Shown here: positions 23,921-60,146 of the stretch, in pieces
How positions within the stretch are numbered: position 1 is the stretch's first letter
How the letters are laid out: each line of letters opens with the position of its first letter
NCBI GenBank assembly: GCA_021736645.1
Contig: JAIPFM010000108.1
Coordinates: 1 to 64,000, forward strand
DNA length: 64,000 nt
Source of the DNA: Phycisphaerae bacterium
Lineage (GTDB): Bacteria; Planctomycetota; Phycisphaerae; Sedimentisphaerales; Anaerobacaceae
Direction: 5' to 3'
The notes under the pieces: model-generated
What the model was told of the DNA's origin: nothing
What the model saw: the letters and a program-made list of their open reading frames with translations, nothing else
Databases searched by the model: none
Position numbers and translations under genes: made by a program

Positions 23921-24019
23921 CCCCCTGATCCCTGACCCCTGATAAAGATCCCTGACCCCTGATCCCTGACCCCTGATAAAGACCCCTGACCCCTGATCCC
24001 TGATAAAGATCCCTGATCA
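23921..24019 (-). repeat. Heptad repeat tract TCAGGGR directly after a stop codon
   Basis: Read on the - strand, TGA of the prepilin gene is followed at once by about eleven TCAGGGA/TCAGGGG heptads. The hexamer TCTTTA is inserted three times, after one, three and four heptads. The tract fills the gap between two pilin genes of one operon. An 83-codon frame through it (RDLYQGSGVRG-type repeats) is an artefact of the tract. No spacer-repeat alternation exists, so it is not CRISPR. Confidence 0.9.
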
Positions 24020-24418
24020 AGATCTCTTGGCCACCAGGGTGGTCAGGGTCACCAGGACCTCATCCGAAGTCAGATTGTTGTCCCCGTCGCGGTCAAATCC
24101 TACAGACACAGACAGGGTCTTCAGGGAGGGATCCTCATCATCGGACACATTGCAGAGATAATCGGTGGCCAGAGATAGCCCGCTTTCATCACGACTTGAA
24201 TTGAAATCATAAACCGTACAGGCCTGAATCTCACTGAGTTTGCCTTGAGCCAGGGCCAGGCTCCTGGTCTTTCTTTCCACGGCCCGACCGGTCACCTGAG
24301 CCGAGGTCATGGCTCTCAATATGGGCACGATTGCCACAAGCAGCAATGACGAGGCCACCACAACCTCCACAATCGTGATGCCGGCTTGTCGTCTGGTCTT
24401 GGCCTGTATCAGGTTCAT
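24017..24418 (-). CDS. Prepilin-like protein, PilV/GspI type
   Basis: A 133-residue minor pseudopilin. The N-terminus RRQAGITIVEVVVASSLLLV carries the cleavage Gly, a Glu at mature position 5 and the hydrophobic helix. The soluble part includes ALAQGKLSEIQA, typical of GspI/PilV. FDRDGDNNLTSDE looks like a Ca-binding DxDxDxN loop. Its ATG is 3 bp downstream of the GspH-like stop, so the two are coupled. The stop codon is followed at once by the TCAGGGR repeat tract. Confidence 0.83.
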   Translation of the reverse strand: MNLIQAKTRRQAGITIVEVVVASSLLLVAIVPILRAMTSAQVTGRAVERKTRSLALAQGKLSEIQACTVYDFNSSRDESGLSLATDYLCNVSDDEDPSLKTLSVSVGFDRDGDNNLTSDEVLVTLTTLVAKRS

Positions 24419-24421
24419 ACA

Positions 24422-24877
24422 TCAATCTTTCGTTAGAATCACGGTGCCTGTGGCAGCCACAAACGAAATCGTATAGGACTTGGTGCCATACGAGACTGTA
24501 ATTTCAGTGCCCTGCCCCTTGGTCAGATTTCCCATAGGCCCAAAACTATACTTCAGGCCGCCAGCAGTCACCGTGGCATGCTCATTAAATGTGTGGGTGT
24601 CCACAATCTCATGTGAGTCCAGATTGTCAATGCGATATCCCGCAGTGACCCCTGTATTCTCCATGACCATTTCATACCCTTTGCTATTGATGGCCGCATC
24701 ACGGAGGGCCATCGACTGGATGCGCCTCAAGTCAGTCACAAGCCTTCGAGCCTCGACTTCAGACTCCTTTTGAAAGATGGCGTCAAATGGCAGCCTTGGA
24801 ACGGTCACGGCAGTGATGACGCCCAGAATCAGGACCACCACCACAATCTCTACAAAGGTAAAGCCCTTTTTTCTCAT
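24422..24877 (-). CDS. Prepilin-like protein, GspH/FimT type
   Basis: A 151-residue pseudopilin starting at ATG 24877 (MRKKGFTFVEIVVVVLILGV), giving a short basic leader, Gly-Phe cleavage site and Glu5. An upstream in-frame start at 24958 would add 27 residues before the leader and is unlikely. The mature protein has EARRLVTDLRRIQSMALRDA, the helix typical of GspH/FimT, then a beta-rich domain. It is encoded between the GspG-like and GspI-like genes, the common minor-pilin order. Confidence 0.85.
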   Translation of the reverse strand: MRKKGFTFVEIVVVVLILGVITAVTVPRLPFDAIFQKESEVEARRLVTDLRRIQSMALRDAAINSKGYEMVMENTGVTAGYRIDNLDSHEIVDTHTFNEHATVTAGGLKYSFGPMGNLTKGQGTEITVSYGTKSYTISFVAATGTVILTKD

Positions 24878-24982
24878 GACACCACTCAATAAGCAAAGCG
24901 AGGATGACTCAACCGGGCCATCCTCGCAGTTTTCTCTTGCTTTAAACATACTGGCCATCCTCCGACCAGAGACCCTATCGTC

Positions 24983-25303
24983 TTAGTGCGAATGTGCAAC
25001 CACACGGTGACTATCTGCATCCCAGGCATAGGCTGTGCCAAGAGGACACGTAGGGGCTCCGTCAGGGAAGTAATCTTCACTGCCTGTCAGGTCAGCCAGG
25101 GCATCGGGCCATGAACCGACTGTGGCATAATACAATTCCAACTGGGAATTGATCAGGTCGATATTGGCGCTGCAGGCATTTGCCTTTGCGGTTTGTGTAC
25201 TTGTACTGATTCTGGGAATGGCCACAAAGGCCAATGCGCCAAGAATCAGAACCACCACCATCAATTCGACCAAAGTAAAACCTAACTGTCTCTTGCACCT
25301 CAT
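24983..25303 (-). CDS. Major pseudopilin-like protein, GspG type
   Basis: A 106-residue prepilin starting at ATG 25303 (MRCKRQLGFTLVELMVVVLI) with AAAGGAG seven bases upstream. It has a Gly-Phe cleavage site and Glu5. The soluble domain is short and ends DYFPDGAPTCPLGTAY...RVVAHSH. This ending is shared with a second pilin at 33630 (DYFPDGPPQCPFGTGY...RIIAHNH). Likely the main subunit of the filament built by the neighbouring ATPase and platform protein. Confidence 0.9.
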   Translation of the reverse strand: MRCKRQLGFTLVELMVVVLILGALAFVAIPRISTSTQTAKANACSANIDLINSQLELYYATVGSWPDALADLTGSEDYFPDGAPTCPLGTAYAWDADSHRVVAHSH

Positions 25304-25409
25304 TGTGTACTCCTTTCGCTCAGTATTTGTTAATATCGCCAAAACGATTTATAATGTTAGTGCCTGTATCGACATGGCACTTAAGACACTTAATCAGTTT
25401 ATTTAAAAC

Positions 25410-26606
25410 CTACTTCAGATGATTCATATAGTCGATCATGGGCAGATACACGGCCAATAATATGGTACCGATCAAAGACCCCATGGTGACTGTCAGGATG
25501 GGTTCCAGTTTGACCAGCAGGCTGCTGATAATGCGGTCTATATCCTTGTCCACGAACTCGGACCCCTTGATCAGCATCTCAGGCAATCGCCCTGCCTGCT
25601 CCCCGGAATCCGCCATGTGAATGATGATCGAAGGAAATATGTCATGCGATCCGAATGCCTTGGCCACGGCCGTACCGGCCTGGATCTCATCCTTTAATGT
25701 CTCTGTGATTTGAGACATGTGCGCATTGGCCGCCACCTGCGTGGCCACATCCAAGGCCTCCACCAGGGGGACGCCCACGGAAACCAGTGTGGCAAAGGTT
25801 CGATTAAAACGGGAAACCACCACCAGCCTATTCAGTTTGCCAAAATAGGGCAGTCGAAGTTTCAGGGTATCGACCCGTAGTCTATTGTTCGGAGCTTTCA
25901 CCCAGTGCCTGATCCCAAAGACAAGGATCAGTATCCCGGCTATGATCAGATACCACCAATTGTGAAACAGGGAGCTCACCATCACCAGAAACTGAGTCGG
26001 CCCGGGCAGCGGCACATTCATACGCGTGTAGATCTTGGAAAACATGGGAACCACAAACATGATCAGGGCCGAAACCACCACCCCGCAGACACAGACCACG
26101 ACCGTGGGATAGGTAAAGGCATGTTTCACCTTTTGATGGATCTGCATCTTGTTTTCAAGATACTGGGCCGTCATGTTCAGTACATTGCTGAGTTCACCGC
26201 TCGATTCTCCGGCCTCGATCATGCCCAGAAAATACGAGGAAAAGATCTGTTCGTACGGCTCAAAGCCCTTCCTGAGCGTGGCACCGGACGTCACTCTTTC
26301 TCGGACATCGGCAATGATATCCTTCAGTTGAAGATTTTCGGCCTGTTCTTGAAGGACCTCAAGGCAGTGCATCACGCCCAGCCCGGCAGAATACATCCCT
26401 GCGAACTTGAATGTGAATTCTACCACCTCGGCCTGAGTCACGCGCTTAGACGTACCCTGACGCTTCTTCTTCTTGTGCGCCTGAACCAGTGAATAGCCCA
26501 TCTTCTGGAGCTCATCCCGCACATCACTCACAGTGAGTGCATTGTCGATGGTCCCACTGAACTTTTGACCCTGATGATCTTTGGCTGTATAGGTATAGGT
26601 TGGCAT
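25410..26606 (-). CDS. gspF: Inner-membrane platform protein, GspF/PilC-like
   Basis: A 398-residue polytopic protein with two homologous GspF domains. The N-terminus MPTYTYTAKDHQGQKFSGTI is typical. FAGMYSAGLGVMHCLEVL and MIEAGESSGELSNVLNMTAQ mark repeat 1, while FATLVSVGVPLVEALDVATQ and MADSGEQAGRLPEML mark repeat 2. Three membrane helices are visible near 170, 220 and 375. It transmits motion from the ATPase to pilin assembly. It lies 22 bp downstream of gspE. Confidence 0.95.
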   Translation of the reverse strand: MPTYTYTAKDHQGQKFSGTIDNALTVSDVRDELQKMGYSLVQAHKKKKRQGTSKRVTQAEVVEFTFKFAGMYSAGLGVMHCLEVLQEQAENLQLKDIIADVRERVTSGATLRKGFEPYEQIFSSYFLGMIEAGESSGELSNVLNMTAQYLENKMQIHQKVKHAFTYPTVVVCVCGVVVSALIMFVVPMFSKIYTRMNVPLPGPTQFLVMVSSLFHNWWYLIIAGILILVFGIRHWVKAPNNRLRVDTLKLRLPYFGKLNRLVVVSRFNRTFATLVSVGVPLVEALDVATQVAANAHMSQITETLKDEIQAGTAVAKAFGSHDIFPSIIIHMADSGEQAGRLPEMLIKGSEFVDKDIDRIISSLLVKLEPILTVTMGSLIGTILLAVYLPMIDYMNHLK

Positions 26607-26628
26607 AATGATTCACGGTTTCAAAATG

Positions 26629-28323
26629 TTAATGATTCATATCGACGATTCGGCTGACTTCTTCCAGGGTCGTGCTTCTGTTCAACACATCGGTAATCGC
26701 ACTTTGCCCCAGGGTCATCATACCGTCTGACATGGCCTGGCGTTTAATCGCATCATCGCTGCCTCCGTCCACAATCAGATCCTTGATCTTCGGGGACACA
26801 GGCAGAATTTCGTAGATGCTCTTACGTCCCTTAAATCCCGTCTGGTAGCAATCGTTGCATCCGACACTCCGGGCCAATTCCGGCAGCGTGTCAGGCGTGC
26901 TCTGCCCCAAGAGGCGGCAGGCCTCTTCCTCACTGGCCGTATAGGATTCACAGCACTTCGGGCACACACATCGCACCAGTCGCTGGGCCACGGTGCCAAT
27001 CAAGGCGGATCCCACGAGAAACGGGGCCACGCCAATATTGACCAACCGGGAAAAGGCCCCTGCGGCATCATTGGTATGCAGCGTACTCAACACCAGATGG
27101 CCGGTTAATGCCGCACTCACCGCAATTTCGGCGGTTTCCAGATCACGGATCTCACCAATCAGAATCACATCCGGGTCCTGCCTGAGAATACTCTTCAAGG
27201 CGGACGCAAAGGTCAAACCGGCCACAGGCCGTGTCTGCACCTGGGTCACACCATTGAGCCGGTATTCCACGGGATCCTCCACAGTGATCACATTTCTCTT
27301 GGGCGTGCTCACGAGTTGAAGCAGGGAATAGAGCGTGGTGGTCTTACCGCTGCCTGTCGGGCCTGTCATCAGCAGCATACCATAGGGGTTGGACACCAGT
27401 TTCCGCAGTTTTTTATTGCTTTCCGTATCCAGTACGACGGAGTCAATGTCCCATTTCTGGGCATCTTTATCGAGGACACGAATCACGATTTTTTCTCCCC
27501 CCACAGAAGGGAGAGTCGACACGCGTAAATCGTACTCATGGCCCATGTGATTCACGGAAATATGACCGTCCTGAGGTACTCGCTTTTCGGCAATGTCCAT
27601 ACCGGCCTTGATCTTGATATGGGAAGTCACCTCATTCTGTACAGAGGCAGGGACGGTCAGGGTCTGCTGCAGCATACCATCCACGCGGTAGCGCACTCGC
27701 GTCCCTGCGGCCTGAGGCTCGATATGGACATCACTGGCCAGCGCATCAATGGCCCCGCGTACAATGGACGTCACCAGTTTGGTGATCGGATTGGACACCT
27801 CTCCGAACATCAGTGTCTGACCATCTGCCTTGGCGCCGGCTTCATTTTCTTTAAGCCGCATGGCCACAATAGCCTGTTTCGTCTCATTGGCCACATCGAA
27901 TTGGCATTGAATCGCCAGACGAATGGCATCGTATGTCGCAGCCACAGGCACAACTTGATAGCCGGTCTTGATCTCAATCAGGTCCCTGGCCATCAGGTCC
28001 ATGGGTGAGGACATGGCCACAAACAACTGGTCGTTTTCGACCTTGATTGGAATCAGGGTATGCCGGTCCGCCAGTTCAAAGGGAACCAGATGCGCCACCA
28101 CCTGTTCAATGGAATCCGGTTCCAGAGTAATGAAATCAATACCATGACTGACAGCCAACACCTTGAGAAACTGATCCTCAGTCAGGTACGATTGACCCTT
28201 GAGGATGGACAGCACGCTATGCCCTGTTTTCAAGTGCTCCTGGACCACCTCCTCCAGGGCCTGCTTGCTGAGCATGTCCTCCTGCTCCAAAAATGCAATA
28301 GTCGAGTCTTGTGTATCTATCAT
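26629..28323 (-). CDS. gspE: Assembly ATPase, GspE/PilB-like
   Basis: A 564-residue secretion/pilus ATPase if the ATG at 28323 is used; an ATG at 28374 would add 17 residues and neither start has a strong ribosome site. The N-terminal GspE_N domain (about 1-150) is followed by the ATPase: TGPTGSGKTTTLYSLL (Walker A), the Asp box VITVEDPVEYRL, ILRQDPDVILIGEIRDLETA (Walker B) and a His box STLHTNDAAGAFSRL. A tetracysteine zinc site (CVCPKC and CNDC) fits GspE/PilB extension ATPases. It opens the operon, 201 bp from the divergent LamG prepilin gene. Confidence 0.95.
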   Translation of the reverse strand: MIDTQDSTIAFLEQEDMLSKQALEEVVQEHLKTGHSVLSILKGQSYLTEDQFLKVLAVSHGIDFITLEPDSIEQVVAHLVPFELADRHTLIPIKVENDQLFVAMSSPMDLMARDLIEIKTGYQVVPVAATYDAIRLAIQCQFDVANETKQAIVAMRLKENEAGAKADGQTLMFGEVSNPITKLVTSIVRGAIDALASDVHIEPQAAGTRVRYRVDGMLQQTLTVPASVQNEVTSHIKIKAGMDIAEKRVPQDGHISVNHMGHEYDLRVSTLPSVGGEKIVIRVLDKDAQKWDIDSVVLDTESNKKLRKLVSNPYGMLLMTGPTGSGKTTTLYSLLQLVSTPKRNVITVEDPVEYRLNGVTQVQTRPVAGLTFASALKSILRQDPDVILIGEIRDLETAEIAVSAALTGHLVLSTLHTNDAAGAFSRLVNIGVAPFLVGSALIGTVAQRLVRCVCPKCCESYTASEEEACRLLGQSTPDTLPELARSVGCNDCYQTGFKGRKSIYEILPVSPKIKDLIVDGGSDDAIKRQAMSDGMMTLGQSAITDVLNRSTTLEEVSRIVDMNH

Positions 28324-28524
28324 GCGTAGGGCATCCTTATCATAAATCAGTAACAACACCCTATCGTCATACAAACATGCGGACTTTATGAAAAGATGGC
28401 TGTCCGGGGTCCACCCTGATACGGAGTTTAAAGCCGTGCCCCTAATGTCGCAGTGTTAAGTGACCGACACATCTGAGAAGAAATGCCAACATCGGGTTTC
28501 GTCCTTGGATCATGAAGAACGTCT

Positions 28525-31023: not shown

Positions 31024-31188
31024 GCACAACACACGCTCTGCCGAAAAACTTTCAAAGCTCAAAGGCCCGCGTCCATGCATCCACCGCCCGGCTGTTCTCA
31101 AGGTCCATTTTGAAGCACGGATAAAACTTTGTATACTTTGCGCGTGACACTCTAGCGATACACAACACATGAATCTATGGGGGAGTAG

Positions 31189-32007: not shown

Positions 32008-32221
32008 AATAATCGGACCTGCCCTCCGGTCATGAACACTCTGCCACATTTCCAGGCCTCGGACAGTTGTCATGGTGGGCGGTCACCCTGCCATAGAACC
32101 ACACACACAGACATGGCCTTGCGATGCATTATAGGTCGCACATTCTGGACACAATCTCACCTCATACAGGCCAATGTCCGGGCAGAACTTTCCACTACAG
32201 TCACTTCCAATTTTCTCCGAC

Positions 32222-32280: not shown

Positions 32281-32299
32281 TTGGCTAAGGAGAAAATAA

Positions 32300-33493: not shown

Positions 33494-33506
33494 CGAGGCA
33501 GGGCGG

Positions 33507-34077: not shown

Positions 34078-36174
34078 ATGAGCCAAAAGAAGATCCATTC
34101 ACATACGCTGGAGGTGCTGGAATACCAGACCATTCTGGAGATCTTATCGCATTACGCCTCCAGCGAACTGGGGCGACAGGCCGCTCTGGGGCTCACCCCC
34201 GTCACGGACAAACACTGGATACAGGCGCGCCTTGCAGAAACCTCTGAACTCAGGGCCCTGCTGGACCAGGGCGAACGTATCCCTCTGGCAGGTCTGTGTG
34301 ATCTCAATACCCTGTTTGCCCACTTCGGCAAGAAGCAAACCCTGTTTGAGCCTGAAGAACTCCTGCAGATCTGCGATACTCTGGCTGCGGCCGGACGACT
34401 CAAACAGGTCTTCCAAGACCTCGATCCGGAGTCCTATGCACACCTCCATGCGCTGGGCGGCCGTCTCCAGGAATTCCATGATCTGGTCCGGGAAATCAAC
34501 CGCTGCATTGACGGCAGAGAAGGCGTGCGTGATGAAGCCTCGGTCCAGCTGGGGGCCCTGCGGTCACGCATCTCATCGTTGGATGCGGCACTCCGCAAAC
34601 AATTCAACCGTCTGGTCTCCAATCCACAGATTCGCAAGGCCATTGAGAACGACAACTTCATGATGCGCCACGGACGACCTGTAGTGGCCGTCAAATCGCA
34701 CTACCGCATGCACCTCAGGGGCACGGTTCTGGACCGCTCCCACACAGGGGCCACACTCTACGTGGAGCCGGATGAACTGGTCGAACTCAGCAATGACCTG
34801 GAAGATGCCAGGTTCGCGGAAAAAAAGGAAGTGGATCGACTCCTGTGGCAACTGACGCACCAGGTACTTTCGCAACAGCCCGATATCCTGGCCACTGTCA
34901 GGACACTCGGTCTGATCGATCTGGCCTATGCCAAGGCACGCTTCAGTCAGGCCTATGTAATGAGCGCCCCGGACATCAATACCTACGTACAGCTTCGCGA
35001 GGCGCGTCACCCCCTGCTGCTGCAGTGGGCTGCTCAGCAGAAGGACTGCCCCGTCTCCGAACTGACTCAGGAGGTGGTACCCATTTCTCCCAGGCTGGGA
35101 CAGGACTTTGACCTGCTCCTGATCACGGGCCCCAACACGGGCGGAAAAACCGTGCTCCTCAAGACCATTGGACTGTGCATCCTCATGGCCCAGAGCGGCA
35201 TGCATATCCCGGCAGGTCCGGGCTCTCAGGTGGCCATCTATGATCAGGTCTTTGCAGACATCGGTGACGAGCAGAGCATCCAGCAGAGCCTGAGCACCTT
35301 TTCTGCGCACGTCCGACAGGTCATCCACATCCTGAAGCATGCGCACAAACAGACCCTTGTACTCCTCGATGAACTCGGTGCAGGCACGGACCCCACAGAG
35401 GGCGCGGCCCTGGCCACGGCCATCCTGGAGGCATTGATCAGTCAGGAAGCCCACACCGTGGCCACCACGCACCTGGGCGACCTCAAGTCCTTTGCCTATT
35501 CGCAGGCCCGAGCTGAAAATGCCTCCGTGCAGTTTAATGTGGACTCTCTTGAACCCACGTACAGACTGTTCATCGGGACACCGGGCAGCAGCAATGCCTT
35601 GATCATTGCACAGAAGCTGGGTATGGACCGCACCGTGATTTCACAGGCGCGTGCCCTGCTGGCCAAAAACCAGGATGGCTCTTCAGACCTCATCAATCAG
35701 GTACAAAAGACGCGAGAACTCGCGGAACGCAAGCGACGCAAGGCCCAGACCCTGCTCGACAGGGCCAAGTCCATGCGCTCCACAGCGGCCGAACGGTTGT
35801 CGGAAATCAACGATCAGGGCAAGCTGCTCGAACACCAGGCCAACCACGAAATCGATCAGACCATGCAGCAGATCCGAGACCTCATGGAGCAATTCCAACG
35901 CACCATGGACAATGCCCCGAAACCCTGGAATGAAAAGGCCCAGGCCCTCAAGAAAAAACTTCATGCACTGGCTGCCAGTACCCCCCTGGCCAAACGGCAT
36001 CAGGCCTTTGTGGACAGCCTCAAAAAAGGGGACTCCGTGTACGCCATCCCCTTCAAGCGAATCGGCCTGGTGGATCGAATTCGCAGAAAACGGGAGCTCG
36101 TCATTGTCCTGGTCGAGGGGAAACACATCGAACTTGGATTTCATCAGATTGCCAGGCCTCAGTACCGGCTGTAG
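34078..36174 (+). CDS. mutS2: MutS2-family ATPase lacking the Smr domain
   Basis: A 698-residue MutS2 (RqcU) protein, against about 780 for the family. The N-terminal core starts LEVLEYQTILEILSHYASSE. The MutS ATPase domain has LLITGPNTGGKTVLLKTIGL (Walker A), VLLDELGAGTDPTEGAALAT (Walker B/signature) and ATTHLGDLKSFAY. A charged coiled coil (about 545-625) and a KOW-like segment (KKGDSVYAIPFKRIGLVDRI) follow. The protein stops right there, so the usual C-terminal Smr nuclease domain is missing. MutS2 proteins act on collided ribosomes or suppress recombination. The stop codon TAG is followed at once by a heptad repeat. Confidence 0.93.
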   Translation: MSQKKIHSHTLEVLEYQTILEILSHYASSELGRQAALGLTPVTDKHWIQARLAETSELRALLDQGERIPLAGLCDLNTLFAHFGKKQTLFEPEELLQICDTLAAAGRLKQVFQDLDPESYAHLHALGGRLQEFHDLVREINRCIDGREGVRDEASVQLGALRSRISSLDAALRKQFNRLVSNPQIRKAIENDNFMMRHGRPVVAVKSHYRMHLRGTVLDRSHTGATLYVEPDELVELSNDLEDARFAEKKEVDRLLWQLTHQVLSQQPDILATVRTLGLIDLAYAKARFSQAYVMSAPDINTYVQLREARHPLLLQWAAQQKDCPVSELTQEVVPISPRLGQDFDLLLITGPNTGGKTVLLKTIGLCILMAQSGMHIPAGPGSQVAIYDQVFADIGDEQSIQQSLSTFSAHVRQVIHILKHAHKQTLVLLDELGAGTDPTEGAALATAILEALISQEAHTVATTHLGDLKSFAYSQARAENASVQFNVDSLEPTYRLFIGTPGSSNALIIAQKLGMDRTVISQARALLAKNQDGSSDLINQVQKTRELAERKRRKAQTLLDRAKSMRSTAAERLSEINDQGKLLEHQANHEIDQTMQQIRDLMEQFQRTMDNAPKPWNEKAQALKKKLHALAASTPLAKRHQAFVDSLKKGDSVYAIPFKRIGLVDRIRRKRELVIVLVEGKHIELGFHQIARPQYRL

Positions 36175-36308
36175 GTTCCAGGTTCACGGTTAAAAGGTTA
36201 ACACAGGACTTCTTCAAAAAGCCCTGTAGCGTTCAGTTTTCAGTAAGCAGTATTCAGCAAAACAGGTTTAATGAAGCTGTATACTGTCATGCAAAAACTG
36301 AAAACTGG
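36174..36308 (+). repeat. Composite intergenic repeat, copy A (after mutS2)
   Basis: Starting with the last base of the mutS2 stop codon, four heptads (GGTTCCA, GGTTCAC, GGTTAAA, AGGTTAA) lead into a 25-bp near-palindrome at 36203-36227 (ACAGGACTT...AGCCCTGT). CAGTTTTCAGTAAGCAG-type heptads, an AT-rich spacer and inverted ACTGAAAACTG follow. The hairpin faces the gene end. Copies at 38456, 48843 and 60000 share this order. Confidence 0.88.
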
Positions 36309-36997
36309 CTCAATTCATAACCGGGGTTTATTGGGTAACACGAGATACAAAAGATGAACACCCAATGTTCAACATAAAAACTGTGGAACGCAGCGATTTG
36401 CGCCCTTGGCCATTGATCATTCCTTGTTGGATATTGGATATTCGAGTATGGCAATAATTACCCAGAATTGAACCCTGTCTGAAAACTTAAAGTCTGAAAA
36501 ACTTCAGCGATTCACCGTGAACCCTTTTAACCCCTAACCCCTTTTTAACCATGAACCGAACTTTTGCCCACTTGGCCAAAATATTACACATATTTTTCCC
36601 CTTGTCAGTATTTTTGTTTTGCGTTGCATGTAGTCAATGCGTAACATGAATACATAGGATGTTATGGATGATCTGCCTAGGATGGGCAATCAAGCAAAAG
36701 AATGGAGTCTTTGTTATGCAGTTTAACAGTCCTAGTTTCCTGTCCCCTGCAAAAAGCAACTCCTCTCCAAATTACGACAGGTGCTCACTATGGATAGATG
36801 GCCCTGTCCCTGCTTGCGGTCTAGTGCTTGCGTCACTACCCCCTACCCCCAGTTCCTCCATCTCCCCACAAAGGTAACGTGTGATCGCGGTTTGCGCTCT
36901 GCGCAGGCCAGTGAAAGAAAAGGTTTTCCGGAAAGGAGGTGTGACAACTGAATCTGTCCCAGGGTCTTGATTGAGTTCAAGGAAAGGAGGATCAAGA
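36309..36997. other. Intergenic mosaic of short repeats and a leader region
   Basis: 36309-36560 is a patchwork of short heptad families: TTGGATA twice at 36427-36440, TCTGAAAA units at 36478-36503, and GTGAACC/CCCCTAA-type units at 36516-36559. From about 36600 it becomes the upstream region of the secreted-protein gene. The 10-mer GGAAAGGAGG occurs twice (36930-36939 and 36981-36990); only the second is placed as a ribosome site. No convincing small gene was seen. Confidence 0.6.
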
Positions 36998-37801
36998 ATG
37001 AAAAGGACGTCATTTCTTGTTCTTATCGCTTGTGTGATGACTCAGCAGATCGCCAGTGCCAGTCACCGTGTTCCTGCAAGGTACAGGGTGGGATATTCCA
37101 TGCACGCTTTTAGCCATGACTATCCCTCAGGACTTGTGTCAGGCCGTATGCAGTATTCCCCGTATGCGTTTGGGGTCAACAATCCGGGACTTGTGGATGA
37201 GTACGTGCGTTATAGCCCGTATGCCTTCAGTCCCACACACAATGGTCTGATTTCCGATTACGGTCCGTGCACTAATTCGACGTGGCTTCAACCACGGGAT
37301 CGAACTCTGAATCAGCAAAAACTGACCCAGGCCATTGAACAACTGGCACATTCAATTGACACCATGAAATCGTCCCGTCGGACCACTCACTCAGTCACGT
37401 ATGGTGCGTACCCAGCAGTATTCGCCGGCAGTCAGACCGTGAACGTGCAAGACCTGAGATCCGACAATCCAAGACTTCTGATCAGGGCGCACCTCAATAC
37501 CGTGATCCCTGGCCAGTATAAGGTGTCAAAACTATTGAGAGTGGATCAGGAAGTCGTGAGTTTTAATGTGATCGTTGAAAACAGGAATCTCATTATCAAG
37601 TACTGGAATCCTGCCAAGATTCAATCGATCAAAGAAGCTTCCGACCAGAAGACAGAACGATTGTCAGACTATATGAAAGAGTGGGCAGCCACAGAAAACT
37701 TCTATGAAAAACAAGGAGAAAGGGTGGTACACATTGTAGCCACTGATCAGGACAAAATCATAGGAGAGTTGGCCAGCTGCCTTCAAACAAAAACCATGTA
37801 A
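36998..37801 (+). CDS. Secreted protein with YSPYAF repeats, function unknown
   Basis: The ATG at 36998 has a perfect GGAAAGGAGG seven bases upstream, among the strongest ribosome sites in the window. The 267-residue product has a signal peptide (MKRTSFLVLIACVMTQQIAS). A short repeat region follows (about 30-85) with YSMHAFS, YSPYAFGVNNPGLV and YSPYAFSPTHNGLI. The C-terminal half (about 145-265) is a mixed alpha/beta domain. No family was recognised. The gene is monocistronic, with its own terminator 44 bp downstream. Strong translation signals suggest an abundant envelope protein, by inference only. Confidence 0.75.
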   Translation: MKRTSFLVLIACVMTQQIASASHRVPARYRVGYSMHAFSHDYPSGLVSGRMQYSPYAFGVNNPGLVDEYVRYSPYAFSPTHNGLISDYGPCTNSTWLQPRDRTLNQQKLTQAIEQLAHSIDTMKSSRRTTHSVTYGAYPAVFAGSQTVNVQDLRSDNPRLLIRAHLNTVIPGQYKVSKLLRVDQEVVSFNVIVENRNLIIKYWNPAKIQSIKEASDQKTERLSDYMKEWAATENFYEKQGERVVHIVATDQDKIIGELASCLQTKTM

Positions 37802-37845
37802 ACCCAATACAGCTTCAGCAACATCTTCTTTTCTTTTCTTAACTT

Positions 37846-37880
37846 GCAATGAAGCCCCCCTACCCAGGGGGTTTCATTGC
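37846..37880 (+). terminator. Rho-independent terminator
   Basis: A 14-bp stem GCAATGAAGCCCCC/GGGGGTTTCATTGC with one G-T wobble is followed by TATTTTAATTT. It lies 44 bp after the stop codon of the YSPYAF-repeat gene. Confidence 0.93.
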
Positions 37881-37900
37881 TATTTTAATTTCAGGACATA

Positions 37901-37990
37901 GAGTTCAAAGTGCAAAGTTCTGAGTTGGTTGAACAAATCCCTAGTCTTTGAACTTTGAACTCTGCACTTTGCACTTAGCACTTTGAACTT
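37901..37990 (-). repeat. Heptad repeat tract AGTTCAA/AGTGCAA after rhaM stop codon
   Basis: On the - strand the rhaM stop TAA runs directly into heptads AGTTCAA, AGTGCTA, AGTGCAA, AGTGCAG, AGTTCAA, AGTTCAA (37990 down to about 37945), the first A being the last base of the stop codon. An inverted partial copy (GAGTTCAAAGTGCAAAGTTC) lies at 37901-37920, so the tract can fold back on itself. Confidence 0.88.
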
Positions 37991-38303
37991 ATCCCATGTA
38001 AAACACTTGCTCCAGGGGGACTGTCACCGGGGAATTGTCTGGGTTGGTTTCCATGATATCCGCCATATGGGCCCACCACCTTTTCACGATCTCGGTATCG
38101 CCCAGATCCTGGGATGACGCCTCCCCAGCCTGTTTTTGAACGCCGAATAAAATGTTTGTCTCTTCATCCAGGAATATAAAGTAGTCGGAAACCCCCGCAT
38201 CTTTGAGCAGGTCGCTCAACTCCGGCCAGATGGCATGGTGCCTCTTCTTATACTCGTCCTTGAATCCGGCCTTCAGCTTCATCTTAAAAGCAACTGTCTG
38301 CAT
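37989..38303 (-). CDS. rhaM: L-rhamnose mutarotase
   Basis: Interconverts alpha and beta anomers of L-rhamnose. The start is the second of two adjacent ATGs (38303), six bases after AGGAG, giving 104 residues, exactly the usual length of the family. The conserved core is visible: FKMKLKAGFKDEYKKRHHAI with the catalytic His, then WPELSDLLKDAGVSDYFIFL and VVKRWW-type Trp-Trp (VKRWWAHMADIME). A longer frame to 38456 has no support. No other rhamnose genes are nearby. The upstream end of the gene abuts repeat copy B and the downstream end abuts a heptad tract. Confidence 0.9.
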   Translation of the reverse strand: MQTVAFKMKLKAGFKDEYKKRHHAIWPELSDLLKDAGVSDYFIFLDEETNILFGVQKQAGEASSQDLGDTEIVKRWWAHMADIMETNPDNSPVTVPLEQVFYMG

Positions 38304-38455
38304 CATACACTCCTGTCTGGATGTCCGTTGAATGAGTCTTCGTGCCTGTCCCTGAAAAAAAGCCATCAATGAAGTTCTGCAGACTTCAAGTCCCCTAGGA
38401 ATCCCTGGCGGGATGCTCAGTGGGCAGCATGGGGGACAGCGCGTCAACAACATCA

Positions 38456-38515
38456 TTTTTCTGAAAACTGCTTACTGAAAACTGTACACCACAGGGCTTT
38501 CTGCAAGAGCCCTGT
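38456..38515 (-). repeat. Composite intergenic repeat, copy B (after HNH gene)
   Basis: On the - strand the hairpin ACAGGGCTC...GAAAGCCCTGT (38515 down to 38491) begins with the A of the HNH gene's TGA stop codon. It is followed by heptads CAGTTTT, CAGTAAG, CAGTTTT, CAG. The distal inverted half seen in copies A, C and D is absent; sequence diverges after 38456. Confidence 0.88.
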
Positions 38516-39150
38516 CACTTCAATTCCACGGACCAATAGGCGTGATCCAGAAACTGCTTCCAACTCCTGTAGCGATGATTTCCAAGGTGCACATGGACCA
38601 TGGGATTGCGTTTGGGCTGGCGAGGCGGTCTAATGAGCTGCATATGCGCCTGCTTGGGTGTTCGACAGCCCTTTTTGGCGTTGCAAGTCAGGCAGGCGCA
38701 CACCAGATTCTCCCAGGTGGACAACCCGCCCTGGCTGCGGGGAATAATATGATCCAGGGACAGTTCCCGGGTGGAAAACCGTTTGCCGCAAAACTGGCAT
38801 TGGTTGTTGTCACGTGCAAAGAGATTGCGACGATTGAGTTTGACCTCTTTGCCGGGCAACCGATCAGAGAACAACAGTCGAATGATACGAGGCACAGCCA
38901 CATTGAAATTGACCGTGGAGATCCAGTCGTGTCCATCCGGTTCAAACGTCTGCTTCAGTTCAGACAATTCACACCAGCTCTGGAAGTTGTAATTGTAATA
39001 GGCGCCCTGCTCCACTGAAACCACTTCAGCGATGTTGCGGCAAAGAAGGGAAAACGCTCTGCGCACCCCCACAATACGGACTGCCATGTAGTGCCGATTC
39101 AACACCAGCACATTGCAGTCCAACCCCAGACTGATTCCAACACCTGCCAT
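38515..39150 (-). CDS. HNH endonuclease-domain protein
   Basis: A 211-residue protein of the family that begins NVLVLNRHYMAVRIVGVRRA and ends in an HNH domain. The HNH part (about 115-170) has a zinc ribbon CQFC...CLTC, the catalytic LDHIIPRSQGG, and WENLVCACLTCNAKKGCRTP. Members are widespread in cyanobacteria and Planctomycetes as solitary genes; the substrate is not known. No toxin, restriction or phage genes adjoin it. Its TGA stop codon overlaps repeat copy B. The N-terminal start is uncertain within a few codons. Confidence 0.88.
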   Translation of the reverse strand: MAGVGISLGLDCNVLVLNRHYMAVRIVGVRRAFSLLCRNIAEVVSVEQGAYYNYNFQSWCELSELKQTFEPDGHDWISTVNFNVAVPRIIRLLFSDRLPGKEVKLNRRNLFARDNNQCQFCGKRFSTRELSLDHIIPRSQGGLSTWENLVCACLTCNAKKGCRTPKQAHMQLIRPPRQPKRNPMVHVHLGNHRYRSWKQFLDHAYWSVELK

Positions 39151-41193: not shown

Positions 41194-41348
41194 GGGGAAC
41201 AACTCTATTGTTTTGTGAACAGAAATCAACCGTGTTTTTTGTAATACTTTAGCGAAGTGAGGCATTTCCCTAAAATGGTTCACGGTTGATTAAATGCACG
41301 AGTTTTTTTAATTCCTAATCATCACCTTCCCCCATATAATGTGGCACT

Positions 41349-48842: not shown

Positions 48843-48946
48843 AAGTTTTCAGTTTTCAGATGACAGTATACAGTATCAAAAATATGTTTTTCTGAAAACT
48901 GCTTACTGAAAACTGGACACCAAAGGATTTTTTGCAGAAGTCCTGT
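48843..48946 (-). repeat. Composite intergenic repeat, copy C (after Gfo/Idh/MocA gene)
   Basis: On the - strand the oxidoreductase stop TAG is followed after one base by hairpin ACAGGACTTCTGC...ATCCT (48946 down to 48923). Heptads CAGTTTT, CAGTAAG, CAGTTTT, CAG come next, then an AT-rich core with ATACTGTATACTGTCAT and the inverted CTGAAAACTGAAAACTT. It fills nearly the whole gap to the DUF362 gene. Confidence 0.88.
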
Positions 48947-48947
48947 C

Positions 48948-50264
48948 CTACATCAATTTGGTGGTGCCGGGAATCGCCACTGGGCGCACCGGCAAATCAC
49001 CAAACTCATACCTGGCAGGGCTCAAATCCAATTGAGAGGCCTTCATGGCCCAGTCCCATGTCAGGGCACTGCCCGTGTAGGCACTCATGCGACCCATGAT
49101 TGCGGTCAGCGTGCTCTCGGCAATGCGTTTTCCGTGATTCAGGGGTTGACCTGCACGGATGCCCGCGATCATGTCAGTATGCTCCTGCACCTGGGGGTTC
49201 TGAACAGGACCCTCATACTGGTAAGATCGTGTCCCCTGGATCTTGGCCACAGAACCATCCAGACTGGCCAGTCCTTCAGACCCCACAACACGGTCAGAGA
49301 TCCGGTCCGTGCAATTGTCAATCTGTCGACAGTAGGCAGACACGCGCAGGTCACCGGGGTACTCATACTCAATGGCAAAGTGATCGTATATATTGCCGTA
49401 ATCGGGCCCTTTCCTGACCTCGCGTCCGCCCACACCGATGCAGCTCACAGGATGGGCGTCCACCGCCCAGTTCATGAAATCCAGGCTGTGCACGAATTGC
49501 TCCACAATATGATCGCCGCTGAGCCAGTTGAACCAGTACCAGCAGCGGCATTGCCATTCCATATCAGACCACTCGGGCCTGCGCTGACGCCTGTGCTTGC
49601 CGAGCCAGGGCGTATTGTGAATCAGAAAGTACGTCTGTCCTCCGACAACCCTGCCGATATCGCCCCGGTGAATTCGCTTGATGGTCTCCAGATACATGTC
49701 ACTGTGTCGACGCTGGGTACCGGCCACAATGGACAGGTTTTTCTCCCTGGCCAGCGCCGAGGTCTCGATCACCGAGCGCACACCCACAGGATCCACAGCC
49801 ACAGGCTTTTCTATAAAACTGTGTTTGCCGGCCTTGACCGCGGCAGCCAGGTGTATGGGCCGAAAACCGGGAGGCGTGGCCATCAACACGATGTCGACAC
49901 CGCTGTCAATCACCTTCTGGTACGCATCGAATCCAGCGAAACACCGGGCCTTCGTGACATTGAATCGATTCCCCATCCGAGCCATAGGGCTGCCAGGCCG
50001 CGTCTGAGACAACTGCCTGAAGGCAGCGTCCAGGGGTTCCTGAAACAGGTCACCCAGGGCATAGAGCTCCACGCCCGGCGCTGCATCCAGGCAATTTACA
50101 GCCGCGCCTGTACCGCGTCCCCCGCAGCCGATCAGTCCGATACGCAGCGCATCGGAACCTGCAGCAAAGGCCCCGGCACTCCACAGTCCCAGGGTCCCCC
50201 ATGACAACGCTGCGGACGTCTTCATAAAGTCACGCCGTGACAACTGTTTCTGTTTTTCTCGCAT
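48948..50264 (-). CDS. Tat-exported Gfo/Idh/MocA oxidoreductase
   Basis: A 438-residue NAD(P)-dependent sugar oxidoreductase with a twin-arginine signal (LSRRDFMKTSAALSWGTLGL). The Rossmann motif is RIGLIGCGGRGTGAAVNCL. The substrate-side EKP motif is present (HSFIEKPVAVD), with AGTQRRHSDMY and HSLDFMNWAVDAHP further on. Exported members are common in Planctomycetes with sulfatases and glycan-degrading genes. It precedes DUF362 on the same strand, separated by repeat copy C. Confidence 0.92.
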   Translation of the reverse strand: MREKQKQLSRRDFMKTSAALSWGTLGLWSAGAFAAGSDALRIGLIGCGGRGTGAAVNCLDAAPGVELYALGDLFQEPLDAAFRQLSQTRPGSPMARMGNRFNVTKARCFAGFDAYQKVIDSGVDIVLMATPPGFRPIHLAAAVKAGKHSFIEKPVAVDPVGVRSVIETSALAREKNLSIVAGTQRRHSDMYLETIKRIHRGDIGRVVGGQTYFLIHNTPWLGKHRRQRRPEWSDMEWQCRCWYWFNWLSGDHIVEQFVHSLDFMNWAVDAHPVSCIGVGGREVRKGPDYGNIYDHFAIEYEYPGDLRVSAYCRQIDNCTDRISDRVVGSEGLASLDGSVAKIQGTRSYQYEGPVQNPQVQEHTDMIAGIRAGQPLNHGKRIAESTLTAIMGRMSAYTGSALTWDWAMKASQLDLSPARYEFGDLPVRPVAIPGTTKLM

Positions 50265-52884: not shown

Positions 52885-52905
52885 AAAGACACACTCCGTG
52901 AATCG

Positions 52906-55770: not shown

Positions 55771-56008
55771 ATGTTCTCCAGATCAAGACATCGTGGTATT
55801 GGTTGCGGGCCAGGCAATCCATAGACGCCTTCCAGAATTCAAACTGCCGCATCTGGGCAACGTTGTTATGGCCGGCATCGCACACATCCGTATCGCTATT
55901 ATTCATGCTGACTGATCTCCACATCAAAACTGCGACGTCTCTTGCCCCAAGCCCACTCTCACGGTATACTGTCTGCTGTAATATAGAATGAACTTACGGA
56001 GTAACCCC

Positions 56009-56905: not shown

Positions 56906-57766
56906 TGGCGCGAGTTGTGCCTGCTGCTTTGGATCACGGGCGGATTCCGGTGTCCACACCGCCAGTTCCAGACTCTTTCGACAGGCGCAGCCTTCCCGCA
57001 CCAGAGCCTTGTCAGACTTCAGCACTGCCTCGATCAAATCGATGCAGTGATCCGTGGCCATCTGAAGGTTTCCAAAGATCTCCTGGAGCAAGGCATGTTT
57101 TCCCTTGGATGCATCGTGAGGGCGCCAGCAATCATAGTCGCTGGCCAGGGCAATCAGGCCATAACACATCTGGGCCTCTCTGGCCAGCTTGGCCTCAGGC
57201 ATGGCAGTCATACCGATCAAGTCGCCCCCCCACAGCCTGTGCATCCGGGACTCGGCGCGTGTTGAAAACTGAGGCCCTTCCATGCATACATACGTGCCCT
57301 GCGCGTGGGTTTTGACCTGTATGGATTGAGCGGCCCTGTTCAGGGTTTCAGCCAGACCTGCGCACACGGGGTCCGACAACTCGCAATGCACAGCACCCTG
57401 ATCAAAAAAGCTGGTCCGACGCTTGAATGTCTTGTCAATGAACTGATCCACGATTACCAGATCCCCCGGCGAAATGGCTTCCTGCAAAGATCCCACAGCG
57501 CCTGTGGCCAACAGGGTATGGACACCCAACTGTTTCATGGCAAACACATTGGCAGCATAGGGCACTTTACTTGGGCTGAAGCAATGCCCCTGACCGTGGC
57601 GATTGAGGAATGCCACACGTCGATCTCCCCATTGCCCGACCACAACAGGGCCGCTGGGTGCGCCAAAAGGCGTATCCACAACCTCCATTTGAGTGTCTGT
57701 CAGATGCCCCGCCAGGCAATCGCCCAAACCGGAGCCGCCAATTATACCTACTATTTCACAGGCCAT
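56894..57766 (-). CDS. mtnP: S-methyl-5'-thioadenosine phosphorylase
   Basis: Cleaves methylthioadenosine in methionine salvage, or a related 6-oxopurine nucleoside in close homologues; 290 residues. The family order is present: VGIIGGSGLGDC (phosphate site), FLNRHGQGHCFSPSKVPYAA, TGAVGSLQEAISPGDLVIVD, YVCMEGPQFSTRAESRMHRL (substrate Met/Glu) and DLIGMTAMPEAKLAREAQM with SDYDCW. The SDYD segment favours adenosine-type substrates (MTAP) over inosine. AAGGAG precedes the ATG. Confidence 0.92.
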   Translation of the reverse strand: MACEIVGIIGGSGLGDCLAGHLTDTQMEVVDTPFGAPSGPVVVGQWGDRRVAFLNRHGQGHCFSPSKVPYAANVFAMKQLGVHTLLATGAVGSLQEAISPGDLVIVDQFIDKTFKRRTSFFDQGAVHCELSDPVCAGLAETLNRAAQSIQVKTHAQGTYVCMEGPQFSTRAESRMHRLWGGDLIGMTAMPEAKLAREAQMCYGLIALASDYDCWRPHDASKGKHALLQEIFGNLQMATDHCIDLIEAVLKSDKALVREGCACRKSLELAVWTPESARDPKQQAQLAPLFL

Positions 57767-57909
57767 TCAAATCTCCTTATTGACGTAATTTTTATTGAGA
57801 GGGTCAGTATACATGGAAAAAATGGCCAAATCTATGCGCAATTTGAGGCCATTTCTTTTGAATTGACCTGATAATTATGCTACAAAATATTAGCATTCGC
57901 TCTATATTT

Positions 57910-58722
57910 ATGATCATGACGTAAGTAGGGGATCGAAAAAATGCATTCACACTCATTGAGTTGCTGGTTGTCATTGCCATCATCGCCGTATTAATGGGCA
58001 TTCTGATGCCTGCACTGACCCGTGTCAAGGACCAGGCCAGGGAAGTGTCCTGCAGGGCAAACCTGCGTCAATACGGTGTGGTTCAGGGTATGTACCTGAA
58101 TGACTTTGAAAGCAAATTTCCAAATCCGTGGAGAAGCCTGGTCGCAACAGAAGCCCCGGTGTCCGGTTATCAGCGTTACTGCCGCTGGCATGATCCGCGC
58201 TATCTGCCGGATGGCCCCCTGTGGAAATACATGCCGGAAGTCAAGGTGAATCTGTGCCCGTCCTTTAACGTACTGGCCAATTCCTATGCGGACATGCACC
58301 CGTCACACGTGGCGACCAATCCCATTGATCCGGTCTATTCGTACAGTATGAATGCCTTCCTCGGCAATGGCGACGGAACAGGCGGGGGTTACAAGGCCAA
58401 AAACCTGGCTCAGGTGACACGCCCCCACGCAGAAGTCTTTTTCTTTGGTGAAGAGAATATGTGGTCCAGGCCGGGCAATTCAAATGTGCTCAATGACAAT
58501 GCCCTGTGCGGCGACGGCAGAGACTGGTTTGGTACATTCCATCAGGCCAGAAAGACAAAAGACGGCAATCTGAATCTTGGCTTCACCAATCTCGTGTTTA
58601 TAGACGGCCATACTGACAAAGTCACATCTGCACTCAAAGAAGACACCACGGATAATTCTGAAAAGGAATGGGGTCAATACGAAAAGCATTCATGGCCAAG
58701 CAAACGCAGGCCCAGCTTATAG
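57910..58722 (+). pseudogene. Prepilin-like H-X9-DG-type protein with broken 5' end
   Basis: The frame reads NAFTLIELLVVIAIIAVLMG, a textbook prepilin leader, then SCRANLRQYGVVQGMYLNDF and a late NLVFIDGH related to the H-X9-DG signature (about 265 codons). No usable start exists in frame. ATG 57910 is followed after four codons by TAA (57922-57924), and nothing but GTA, GGG, GAT and similar codons lies between that stop and the leader. A ribosome-like AGGGG precedes an ATG at 57941 that is out of frame by one base. A one-base deletion, a nonsense change, or a sequence error explains this. Starting at TTG 57961 would lose the cleavage site. Confidence 0.65.
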
Positions 58723-58758
58723 GCTCACTGCCCCATTGACGCTCGAGACTCAAAACAA

Positions 58759-58789
58759 AAGGCCCCTGACAATCATGTCCAGGGGCCTT
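58759..58789. terminator. Rho-independent terminator
   Basis: AAGGCCCCTG (58759-58768) pairs with CAGGGGCCTT (58780-58789). CTTTAT follows on the + strand and a run of A precedes it, so it may act in both directions. It separates the prepilin-like gene from the convergent thioredoxin-fold gene. Confidence 0.88.
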
Positions 58790-58850
58790 CTTTATGTATG
58801 GATTTGACTCGTGACTATCACCTGTCACGTCGAAAAAAAACCTCGATCGT

Positions 58851-59756
58851 TTACTCGGGGGCCTTTTCCTTTTTCAAATGCTCTTGCTTGATTGACTTCA
58901 GATGCGTCACATACTGCTCTGGCGTCATGTCCTGATACCCGGTCTGACCGTACGGTGTGCCTGTGGGATCCGCCAGGTAGATCGTGGGGAAACCCCGGAA
59001 TCCATGGTTTTTGGAAAACTCATCTGACAGACGTTTGTTCTGGGCCGCGAGTTCCTTGGATTGAGCCTTCTTCTGGGGAAAGTCCAGTTTCAAAAACACA
59101 AAGTCTGCAGGCGCCTGCTTCTTGAAATACTCTTTTGAAAACACGGCATTGTCCAGGCGAATGCACCAGATGCACCAGTCTGATCCCGTGAAATCGATGA
59201 GTAGATCCTTTTTCTGTGCCTTGGCCTTGGCCTTGGCCACTTCGTAATCTTCAAGCCACTGATCCTTCACATCCACCAGGGGCTTGGCCTTTTTCAGGAA
59301 AGCCAGGTGTTCAAGGTACTTCTCCGAACCGCCTTCCTGATACCCGGTCTTGGCGTAAGGTACGCCCTTGGCATTGGCCAGATACACAGTGGGGTAGCCT
59401 CTAAAGTCGTGCTTTTCCTTGAATTCGACCCTGAGCCTGTCATTTTGCAGCTTGATCGGCTCAGCGAGTTCCTTGTTTTTGGGATAATCCAGTTTAAGCA
59501 AGACGAAATCCTCTGACACCTTGTCCCCGAATCCAGGCTGGCTGAAGACCTCAGATTCCAGTCTCTTACACCAGATGCACCAGTCAGAACCTGTAAAGAG
59601 GATGAACAGGTCCTTATCCTGCTCCGCGGCCTGCTGCGTGGCCTTGTCAAAGGAATCCAGCCACACGGCCTCCTCAGCCCAGGCACTGCCCCATACACAC
59701 AACACAAAAAGCACTGACACTGATAACAATCCTGACCCTGTTCTTCTCTCTTGCAT
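58851..59756 (-). CDS. Exported protein with two thioredoxin-like domains
   Basis: A 301-residue periplasmic protein starting at ATG 59756 (MQERRTGSG) with AGGA upstream; a frame to 59789 adds 11 residues. A signal peptide ends near AWAEEA. Two thioredoxin-fold domains follow, each with FTGSDWCIWCxRLxxxVF (CxxC = CIWC), KLD(Y/F)P and FRG(Y/F)PT(V/I)YLA (cis-Pro). The halves are about 50 percent alike by eye and so arose by duplication. A role in disulfide reduction or isomerisation outside the cytoplasm is expected. The charged tail (HLKKEKAPE) is short. Confidence 0.9.
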   Translation of the reverse strand: MQERRTGSGLLSVSVLFVLCVWGSAWAEEAVWLDSFDKATQQAAEQDKDLFILFTGSDWCIWCKRLESEVFSQPGFGDKVSEDFVLLKLDYPKNKELAEPIKLQNDRLRVEFKEKHDFRGYPTVYLANAKGVPYAKTGYQEGGSEKYLEHLAFLKKAKPLVDVKDQWLEDYEVAKAKAKAQKKDLLIDFTGSDWCIWCIRLDNAVFSKEYFKKQAPADFVFLKLDFPQKKAQSKELAAQNKRLSDEFSKNHGFRGFPTIYLADPTGTPYGQTGYQDMTPEQYVTHLKSIKQEHLKKEKAPE

Positions 59757-59999
59757 AATCCTGTTCCTTTTCAATCTTTGGACATTCAATTCCTAATATT
59801 CATATATACTTTTGGCCAAATGCAGCATGTTCGCAAGAATAAAAAGAAAAATCGCAACACTTTAGCCCTATGAAGCAAAAGTGTGGTTCACGGTTAAAAA
59901 GGGTCACCGTTCCAGTCAGTCCACTCAGGTGAACCCAAGCGAGAATTTTTGGCCTGATACCGCTGACTCCCATGACCGACCGGAAACTTAGTACTTAAA

Positions 60000-60146
60000 A
60001 CAGGACTTTTGCAAAAAGCCCTGTAGTATACAGTTTTCAGTTTTCAGAAGAACGCGTTTTTTATGCTGAAAACTGCCTACTGAAAACTGAACACTTGGAC
60101 TTTGCAAAAGTCCAGTTAGAACCGTGAACCGTGAACCGTGAACCGC
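60000..60146 (-). repeat. Composite intergenic repeat, copy D, with GGTTCAC heptads (after recO)
   Basis: On the - strand, after a 9-bp hairpin that includes the recO stop codon (GGCCAAGTG/CACTTGGCC, 60150-60170), come four heptads of GGTTCAC type (60146-60119). Next is a near-perfect palindrome GGACTTTTGCAAAGTCC (60113-60097) and CAGTTTT-type heptads. An AT-rich core, inverted heptads and a closing 25-bp hairpin (60024-60000) follow. This is the fullest of the four copies, with hairpins at both ends. Confidence 0.9.

Follow-up and report, generated by a model that had tools for sequence, protein, structure and literature searches.

Heptad-armed hairpin elements and a stop-like insertion target beside the stop codons of a Phycisphaerae genome

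Repeats with a 7-bp unit (heptads) lie at or near the stop codons of six genes in a stretch of 64,000 nucleotides (the window) from a Phycisphaerae bacterium (GenBank assembly GCA_021736645.1, contig JAIPFM010000108.1, positions 1 to 64,000). The exact anchoring at stops is, in our judgment, probably explained by a transposable element with heptad arms and a stop-like target, here called P-Q, the other heptads being loosely biased toward the 3' sides of genes. On this reading, some of the gene-end heptads originated as arms of hairpin elements, of which one family bears an insertion signature. The assembly comprises 5.88 Mb in 234 contigs and is 88% complete; the window lies on the contig that we label C108. 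Genes were called with a dicodon model, and the called stops are more reliable than the starts, which are approximate. Throughout, "unselected loci" are 1.45 Mb of sequence chosen without regard to repeats, including 156 kb of intergenic DNA, and sets described as "all loci" additionally include loci chosen for the heptad TCAGGGR.

Structure, insertion signature and stop codons of P-Q

P-Q is a dispersed, non-coding element of ~125 bp resembling a miniature inverted-repeat transposable element (MITE), and corresponds to the "hairpin plus CAGTTTT" of an earlier, sequence-only reading of the window. It consists of a hairpin end (P), an inward-facing arm of TCAGTTT heptads, a loop, an inverted arm and a second hairpin end (Q). 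The two ends differ and each is self-complementary (P = CAGGACTTTTGCAAAAAGCCCTG; Q = CTGGACTTTTGCAAAGTCCAAG and variants), their terminal sequences CAGGAC and CTGGAC are inverted, and an nhmmer profile built from 11 seeds finds matches on both strands. The arm pattern, with at most 2 mismatches, has 103 matches in the genome. Copies were counted in the analysed stretches of the genome, some of them picked by the arm pattern and none by stop distance, and 79 were found; both ends are present in 42 of them and a single end in 31, and near-identical copies occupy unrelated sites.

The 6-bp flanks of the 42 two-ended copies have a mean identity of 0.718, against 0.484 for a null of 2000 re-pairings of copy ends whose maximum was 0.575; for the first 19 copies the values were 0.86 and 0.522. 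The duplication is exact in 14 of the 42 copies and reaches at least 5/6 in 24, and when flank lengths of 3-9 bp are compared, 6 is the only one that clearly stands out, length 7 being slightly raised (0.452; null 0.367, maximum 0.456). The target resembles TNNTRA. Over 115 ends (both ends of a copy being counted), the hexamer that touches the element ends in TAA in 38 cases and in TGA in 16, with T as its first base in 86 and A as its last base in 103. P-Q is thus short, non-coding and multicopy, with inverted ends and a target-site duplication, as MITEs are. We show that it is a multicopy element with self-complementary ends that, judging from the flanks of its copies, duplicates 6 bp of TNNTRA-like targets, and we infer that it would move as a MITE by means of a transposase. 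Repeat insertion was one of the options raised by the sequence-only reading, and for this element the 6-bp duplications and the stop-like target bear it out.

The stop of the approaching gene overlaps the touching hexamer in 37 of the 73 P-Q copies with a defined end. Forty-six P ends face a stop, and 33 of these lie at 8 bp or less from it, a zone that holds 5.1% of intergenic bases; the peaks at 0 and 3 bp are those expected if the stop forms the second or the first half of TNNTRA. Among the 21 P ends that face a start, one lies at 2 bp and the others at 16 bp or more. Empty sites were rebuilt for the 24 copies with a duplication of at least 5/6, and in 8 of them the stop overlaps the target. 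Once 4 sites whose target falls within a called gene and 4 that lack a stop flank are dropped, the overlap is 8/16, where 2.56 would be expected from uniform placement (P 1.3e-4) and 4.2 from target-weighted placement (P 0.003); within 25 bp of a stop it is 8/9 against 5.4 (P 0.03). A looser, earlier set gave 10/18 against 3.5 (uniform) and 4.84 (target-weighted), after leaving out, from 28 sites, 5 with the target in a called gene and 5 without a stop flank. On the evidence of these tests, target preference and tolerance account for roughly half of the anchoring or more, leaving a modest excess.

In the mechanism that we propose, P-Q would be mobilised as a MITE by a transposase and would enter TNNTRA-like targets, whose last three bases TAA and TGA would match. 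Insertions inside genes would be selected against, and the 6-bp duplication would restore the stop after an insertion. Many of the tolerated insertions would then hit stops, because the target is stop-like, genes are protected and the duplication restores the stop. Copies with the P hairpin after a stop may also have been kept longer, perhaps as 3'-end hairpins, which is a weaker part of the proposal. A second family with GGTTCAC arms and the same layout (family 2) would carry the heptads at recO and probably those at mutS2. The remaining arrays, the larger part, would be a separate period-7 phenomenon, tolerated at the 3' sides of genes and avoided in promoters, some of them perhaps relic arms. 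A stop-like target combined with a restoring duplication suggests a safe way of living in a packed genome, in which the element lands between genes without breaking them.

The six stop-codon sites and family 2

All six repeat placements described by the sequence-only reading exist. It had put five of them at 0-1 bp from the stop and recO at 14 bp; the measured offsets are 0 bp at the prepilin-like open reading frame (ORF), mutS2, rhaM and the HNH gene, as described, whereas Gfo/Idh lies at 2 bp and recO at 15. The features concerned, with their neighbours, are the following.

23923..24016, minus strand: TCAGGGR heptad tract adjoining the stop (24017-24019) of the prepilin-like ORF, with TCAGGGA directly after the stop
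36175..36203, plus strand: GGTTCAC-type arm, beginning GTTCCAGGTTCACGG, that directly follows the mutS2 stop TAG (36172-36174)
36204..36309, plus strand: P-Q copy nested after the mutS2 arm; 29 bp separate its P end (36204) from the stop of mutS2
36504..36587, plus strand: degenerate right part of a family-2 element (model match, E 6.5e-06)
37901..37988, minus strand: GTTCAAA/GTGCAAA foldback whose right arm adjoins the rhaM stop TAA (37989-37991), with GTTCAAA directly after it
38369..38514, minus strand: P-Q copy whose P end abuts the stop of the HNH gene (38515-38517; offset 0 bp), the hairpin end reading CAGGGC
41244..41289, plus strand: family-2 terminal fragment, a terminal hairpin plus GGTTCACGGTT
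48843..48945, minus strand: P-Q copy whose P end, reading CAGGACTT, is separated by two bases from the stop TAG of Gfo/Idh (48948-48950); other end degraded
59854..60178, minus strand: family-2 element interrupted by P-Q, with terminal hairpins and GGTTCAC heptads (two model matches, E 1e-14 and 2.4e-14)
60001..60115, plus strand: full-length P-Q copy nested in the recO family-2 element, with 6-bp flanks TTAAAA / TTAGAA (5/6)

Five of the six genes have Pfam matches (MutS_V, rhaM, HNH, GFO_IDH_MocA and RecO); the prepilin-like ORF ending at 24017 has none in the same search, and there is no Rfam match at gathering score in 23500-60700. The repeat families had been described as unrelated to one another, but not all of them are: the HNH and Gfo/Idh copies are both P-Q, and recO shares family 2, probably with mutS2. 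The six-site coincidence splits into P-Q insertion, a second hairpin family, one isolated foldback at rhaM and, at the prepilin-like ORF, an array that stands alone.

Family 2 has a 156-bp consensus, built from the GGTTCAC repeats, that runs from a terminal hairpin through heptads, a loop and inverted heptads to a second terminal hairpin; 28 copies have a defined end and 10 have both. Eighteen ends face a stop, 11 of them between -18 and +10 bp, a count that stands without a null model. The GGTTCAC repeats at recO are family 2, and the called recO stop (60161-60163) sits within its terminal hairpin, 15 bp from the GTTCACG array. The mutS2 arm (36175..36203) probably belongs here too, by a likeness judged by eye without a model score, and a P-Q copy is nested in each of the two. 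Nesting was also seen on contig C38, where a P-Q end lies within a P-Q end remnant that itself lies 3 bp after a stop (locus L315, 1859-1922).

At rhaM the inverted partners of the foldback match at 13/14 and 12/14. The prepilin tract has a higher-order 34-bp unit (96% matches) with TCTTTA spacers, and in the partner test it has no inverted partner; its G-runs, right after the stop on the gene-sense strand, could form a G-quadruplex. MutS2 has 11 matches at more than 50% identity (51-59%), all in metagenome-assembled genomes assigned to Phycisphaerae, Phycisphaerales, Sedimentisphaerales or Planctomycetota, which makes the bacterium an uncultured member of this group.

Plain period-7 arrays and rival explanations

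The majority of the other heptad arrays fall outside both families. In the unselected intergenic DNA (156 kb), tandem tracts of period 7 with at least two copies number 95, where 20 first-order Markov shuffles of intergenic DNA gave a mean of 11.85 and a maximum of 20, and with P-Q copies masked there are still 70 against 13.4. The same scan found 433, 163 and 41 tracts of periods 4, 5 and 6 (522, 160 and 46.5 expected), with longer period-5 tracts slightly up (22 against 14.25), and slightly raised numbers for period 8 (9 against 3.2) and period 9 (5 against 1.45). Unit sequences are very diverse across the genome. The suggestion that every unit contains TTCA or TCA in the gene sense holds for the two element families, in which the nearest arm reads TTCA or TCAG in the sense of the approaching gene because the arms of both face inward. 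It fails for heptad units at large: among 36 unselected units (run of at least 9, elements masked), TCA occurs in just 15, where 29% is expected, and the over-represented strings are TTCA (13/36) and GTTCA (8/36). GTTCANN tracts lie closer to the stop when TTCA is in the gene sense (Mann-Whitney P 0.0017, with 24 stops in each of the two groups, sense and antisense).

Chance placement of heptads at stops had been thought unlikely, and a genome-wide scan for enrichment there had been proposed. Period 7 is commoner than chance, and P-Q is anchored exactly at stops; for the plain arrays of unselected loci such anchoring is not seen. With P-Q masked, the 49 stop-flanked clusters of exact tracts in these loci include 2 at 2 bp or less (5.0 expected) and 23 within 30 bp of a stop (18.2; P 0.056), and the 39 of fuzzy tracts include 6 at 2 bp or less (4.8), 5 at 0 bp or less (3.7) and 11 within 5 bp (6.4; P 0.022). 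When fuzzy tracts are taken from all loci except the window, including those chosen for TCAGGGR, 9/51 lie at 0 bp or less after masking (4.2; P 0.0097). Exact stop anchoring of all heptads was considered and rejected: the first fuzzy count over all loci, 12/84 at 0 bp or less against 7.0 (P 0.017), is discounted because that set holds P-Q copies and TCAGGGR-chosen loci. Region type weighs more than stop distance for plain arrays, with 7 exact tracts from unselected loci between divergent genes (19.3 expected) and 15 between convergent ones (6.8 expected).

Inverted partners were sought for the same kind of tract. With P-Q masked, 22 of 95 tracts are partnered at 11/14 or better (2.19 in the control) and 16 at 12/14 or better (0.75); the 22, of which 16 point inward, none outward and 6 are undefined, fall in 14 regions, and the 16 in 10 regions, many of them chosen loci or family 2. 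Unselected loci alone give 9/63 against 1.14. When both families are masked, the unselected loci retain 2/53 at 11/14 or better (0.69) and 1/53 at 12/14 or better (0.15), and all loci retain 8/77 at 12/14 or better, in four regions, against 0.3. A single foldback architecture for all heptads is not supported, much of the signal coming from family 2 and chosen loci. Most heptads are not established as foldback arms, because masking both families leaves pairing near the control; the layout, as predicted from sequence, is established for P-Q, for family 2 and for a small number of individual loci, namely rhaM and locus L012 with its TCAGGGR pair.

These results bear most directly on the possibility that heptads are ordinary microsatellites made by polymerase slippage, which would gather near gene 3' ends because coding and promoter DNA excludes them, and that anchoring at stops arises by chance in short spacers. 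At 0-2 bp the plain arrays of unselected loci are not in excess, which speaks for slippage and at the same time removes the support for templated addition of heptads at stops, another option of the sequence-only reading. The depletion between divergent genes and the excess between convergent ones also fit slippage, as does the same regional bias described in Xanthomonas and Nostoc (PMC4692102), and most arrays may well be of the slippage type because the masked inverted pairing is near the control. We nevertheless consider slippage an unlikely account of the whole: it leaves unexplained why P-Q has dispersed copies, a stop-like target and 6-bp duplications and why the copies of family 2 share terminal hairpins, and the excess of period 7 over its neighbours is not accounted for by slippage alone.

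Contigs C37 (at its end) and C181 (at its start) both stop inside long GTTCACG arrays with at least ~18 units. Arrays are therefore probably longer than they appear here, and they may be points at which the assembly breaks. Two long perfect arrays match neither element model, one of AAGACTG (~8 units; locus L024, 729-786) and one of ACTACTG (~7 units; locus L058, 7919-7968).

A second alternative is that P-Q copies are conserved 3'-end RNA structures, acting as bidirectional terminators and spread by gene conversion or selection without transposition. The Q hairpin does covary, with compensatory changes among 46 sequences at pair 4-18 (GC 23, AT 18) and pair 6-16 (CG 21, GC 19), and of the 49 tandem-region copies that could be classified, 33 have their P end toward the stop (P 0.021). 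Less conserved copies are also more often at stops, 31/53 of those with lower model scores against 6/20 of those scoring at least 110 (Fisher P 0.038). The last two figures hint weakly at a function at RNA ends, the third option of the sequence-only reading, and at retention of P hairpins after stops. The two window copies other than those touching stops fold far better than shuffles as RNA (z -5.92 and -3.17), but the stop-touching pair does not, which weighs against retention. Without transposition, however, the sharp 6-bp duplication, which is an insertion mark and is exact at 14/42 sites, and the near-identical copies at unrelated sites would be hard to understand, and of the five terminator-like sites that 36100-38600 contains, where 2.9 are expected, none falls in the two P-Q copies of that region and one overlaps the family-2 fragment at its edge. 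We regard this alternative as improbable. A textbook intrinsic terminator, with a 14-bp stem and a T-rich tail, lies at 37846-37880 of the window after a gene ending at 37801, and the organism therefore seemingly uses ordinary terminators too.

The idea that P-Q copies are elements like repetitive extragenic palindromes (REP) moved by a Y1 transposase (REP-associated tyrosine transposase or IS200 type) agrees with their location beside stops, with a conserved mismatched pair in the hairpin (A/C at P pair 5-19 in 45/49, G/T on the other strand) and with three matches to PF01797 (Y1_Tnp) in the assembly, and is nonetheless very improbable, given the clear 6-bp duplication, which to our knowledge Y1 transposition does not make, and the lack of P ends in the stretches around two of the three Y1_Tnp genes (L313 and L314). 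The A/C mismatch may mark one strand for recognition.

Several observations weigh against transposition of P-Q into stop-like targets as the source of the exact anchoring, the absence of P ends around those two genes among them. PF01609 is absent from the 88%-complete assembly, in a search that covered PF01609 and PF01797 as transposase families. No autonomous relative was recognised in 20 further stretches, judged from the 150 bp inward of P ends; the 15 P ends in 14 of these stretches resembled element-sized copies or end remnants. The exact arm pattern, with at most 1 mismatch, occurs in 0 of 60 relatives. Of the two window copies that touch stops, that of the HNH gene has ends matching at 2/6, without duplication, and the Gfo/Idh copy has a single defined end and no demonstrable duplication; shuffled sequences fold as well as the RNA of parts of both (z -0.56 and -1.21). 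The target-weighted null accounts for about half of the stop overlaps, the excess at empty sites is thin once limited to 25-50 bp of a stop (P 0.01-0.04), and the age comparison takes the model score as a proxy for age. For family 2, the best duplication in the 10 two-ended copies, over many offsets, is 0.58 and none is clear, and the near-control pairing of unselected tracts after masking counts on the same side.

Relatives of the bacterium carry other heptads. GTTCANN triplets, of which its own genome has 79, number 3 and 0 in two genomes of the same genus and are present in 15 of 41 genomes searched; the same-genus genomes have TCAGTAA heptads instead, with 162 and 179 pattern matches. A mutS2 query found partial matches in those two genomes (27-49% identity). 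In same-genus stretches 6 of 8 tracts, in three regions, have an inverted partner at 12/14 or better (control 0.05), and among same-genus loci picked by the TCAGTAA pattern 1 of 15 has one. A contiguous-arm pattern found one locus in the sibling genomes, and a looser listing 15, stop-side from 0 bp and start-side from 26 bp. In two same-genus loci (L334 and L345), TCAGTAG/TTAGTAA heptads run into the gene and the unit itself apparently supplies the stop TAG. Across 13 Phycisphaerae loci 6 of 9 tracts are partnered (control 0.3), all six in one locus, and across 26 Chloroflexota loci 0 of 16 tracts has an inverted partner; one Herpetosiphon llansteffanensis locus (L090) holds AAGGATG, TCAAAAG and AACCCCT arrays within 22 kb, without inverted partners. 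Turnover of the heptad unit between close species is clear from these comparisons, and a common foldback layout is not.

Heptad-armed foldbacks might form a wider mobile class of Phycisphaerae, with stop-like targeting, a 7-bp copying process that rebuilds the arms and one unit per lineage. We hold this to be doubtful, its odds being lowered by the scarcity of inverted pairing outside the two families and by the 1/15 sibling loci. If it were true, part of the bacterial excess of heptameric repeats would be relics of elements and not products of polymerase slippage.

Comparison with known systems

The palindromic ends of integron attC sites carry RYYYAAC / GTTRRRY boxes. P-Q was considered as an attC and rejected by inspection, its ends reading CAGGAC...GTCCTG without such boxes. 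Among bacterial MITEs, it resembles MITEAba12 of Acinetobacter, which makes a 9-bp AT-rich target-site duplication (PMC6382973), and those reviewed in PMC10969869, in being short, non-coding and multicopy with inverted ends and a target-site duplication. It differs from the MITEs described there in its heptad arms, its self-complementary terminal hairpins and its 6-bp stop-like target; the main text of the review contains neither "stop codon" nor "heptamer". Our literature search, in the parts of the sources that it covered, recognised no bacterial MITE that targets stop codons and no study of heptads in Planctomycetota. Pneumococcal SPRITE elements lie near gene 3' ends and may be co-opted as terminators, and BOX encodes the stop of 36 genes (PMC3049150). 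Both have another sequence and structure, and the account in PMC3049150 describes neither heptad arms nor a stop-like target for them.

The heptads themselves have closer parallels. In marine Beggiatoaceae, TAACTGA is an abundant intergenic heptad found mostly just upstream of starts (PMC4679880); its complement is TCAGTTA, which resembles the TCAGTTT and TCAGTAA of the present genomes, and it differs from these in position. The GGGNATC heptads of Xanthomonas and Nostoc, whose unit is of a type that forms G-quadruplexes, are intergenic, lie on the coding strand no more than 50 bp from stops and nearer the 5' neighbour, and are few between divergent genes (Rehm 2015, PMC4692102), generally without a link to mobile elements in that report. 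Element masking and inverted-arm tests of the kind used here can be applied to any heptad-rich genome, including those of Xanthomonas, Nostoc and Beggiatoa. Judged on unit sequence only, GTTCANN and TCAGTTT lack GGG and are not capable of forming a G-quadruplex, and TCAGGGR could qualify. The heptads of our genome share the geometry described for GGGNATC (PMC4692102), being 7 bp long, intergenic, near stops in the sense strand and few between divergent genes; they differ in having many units, part of them in hairpin elements, one of which bears an insertion signature.

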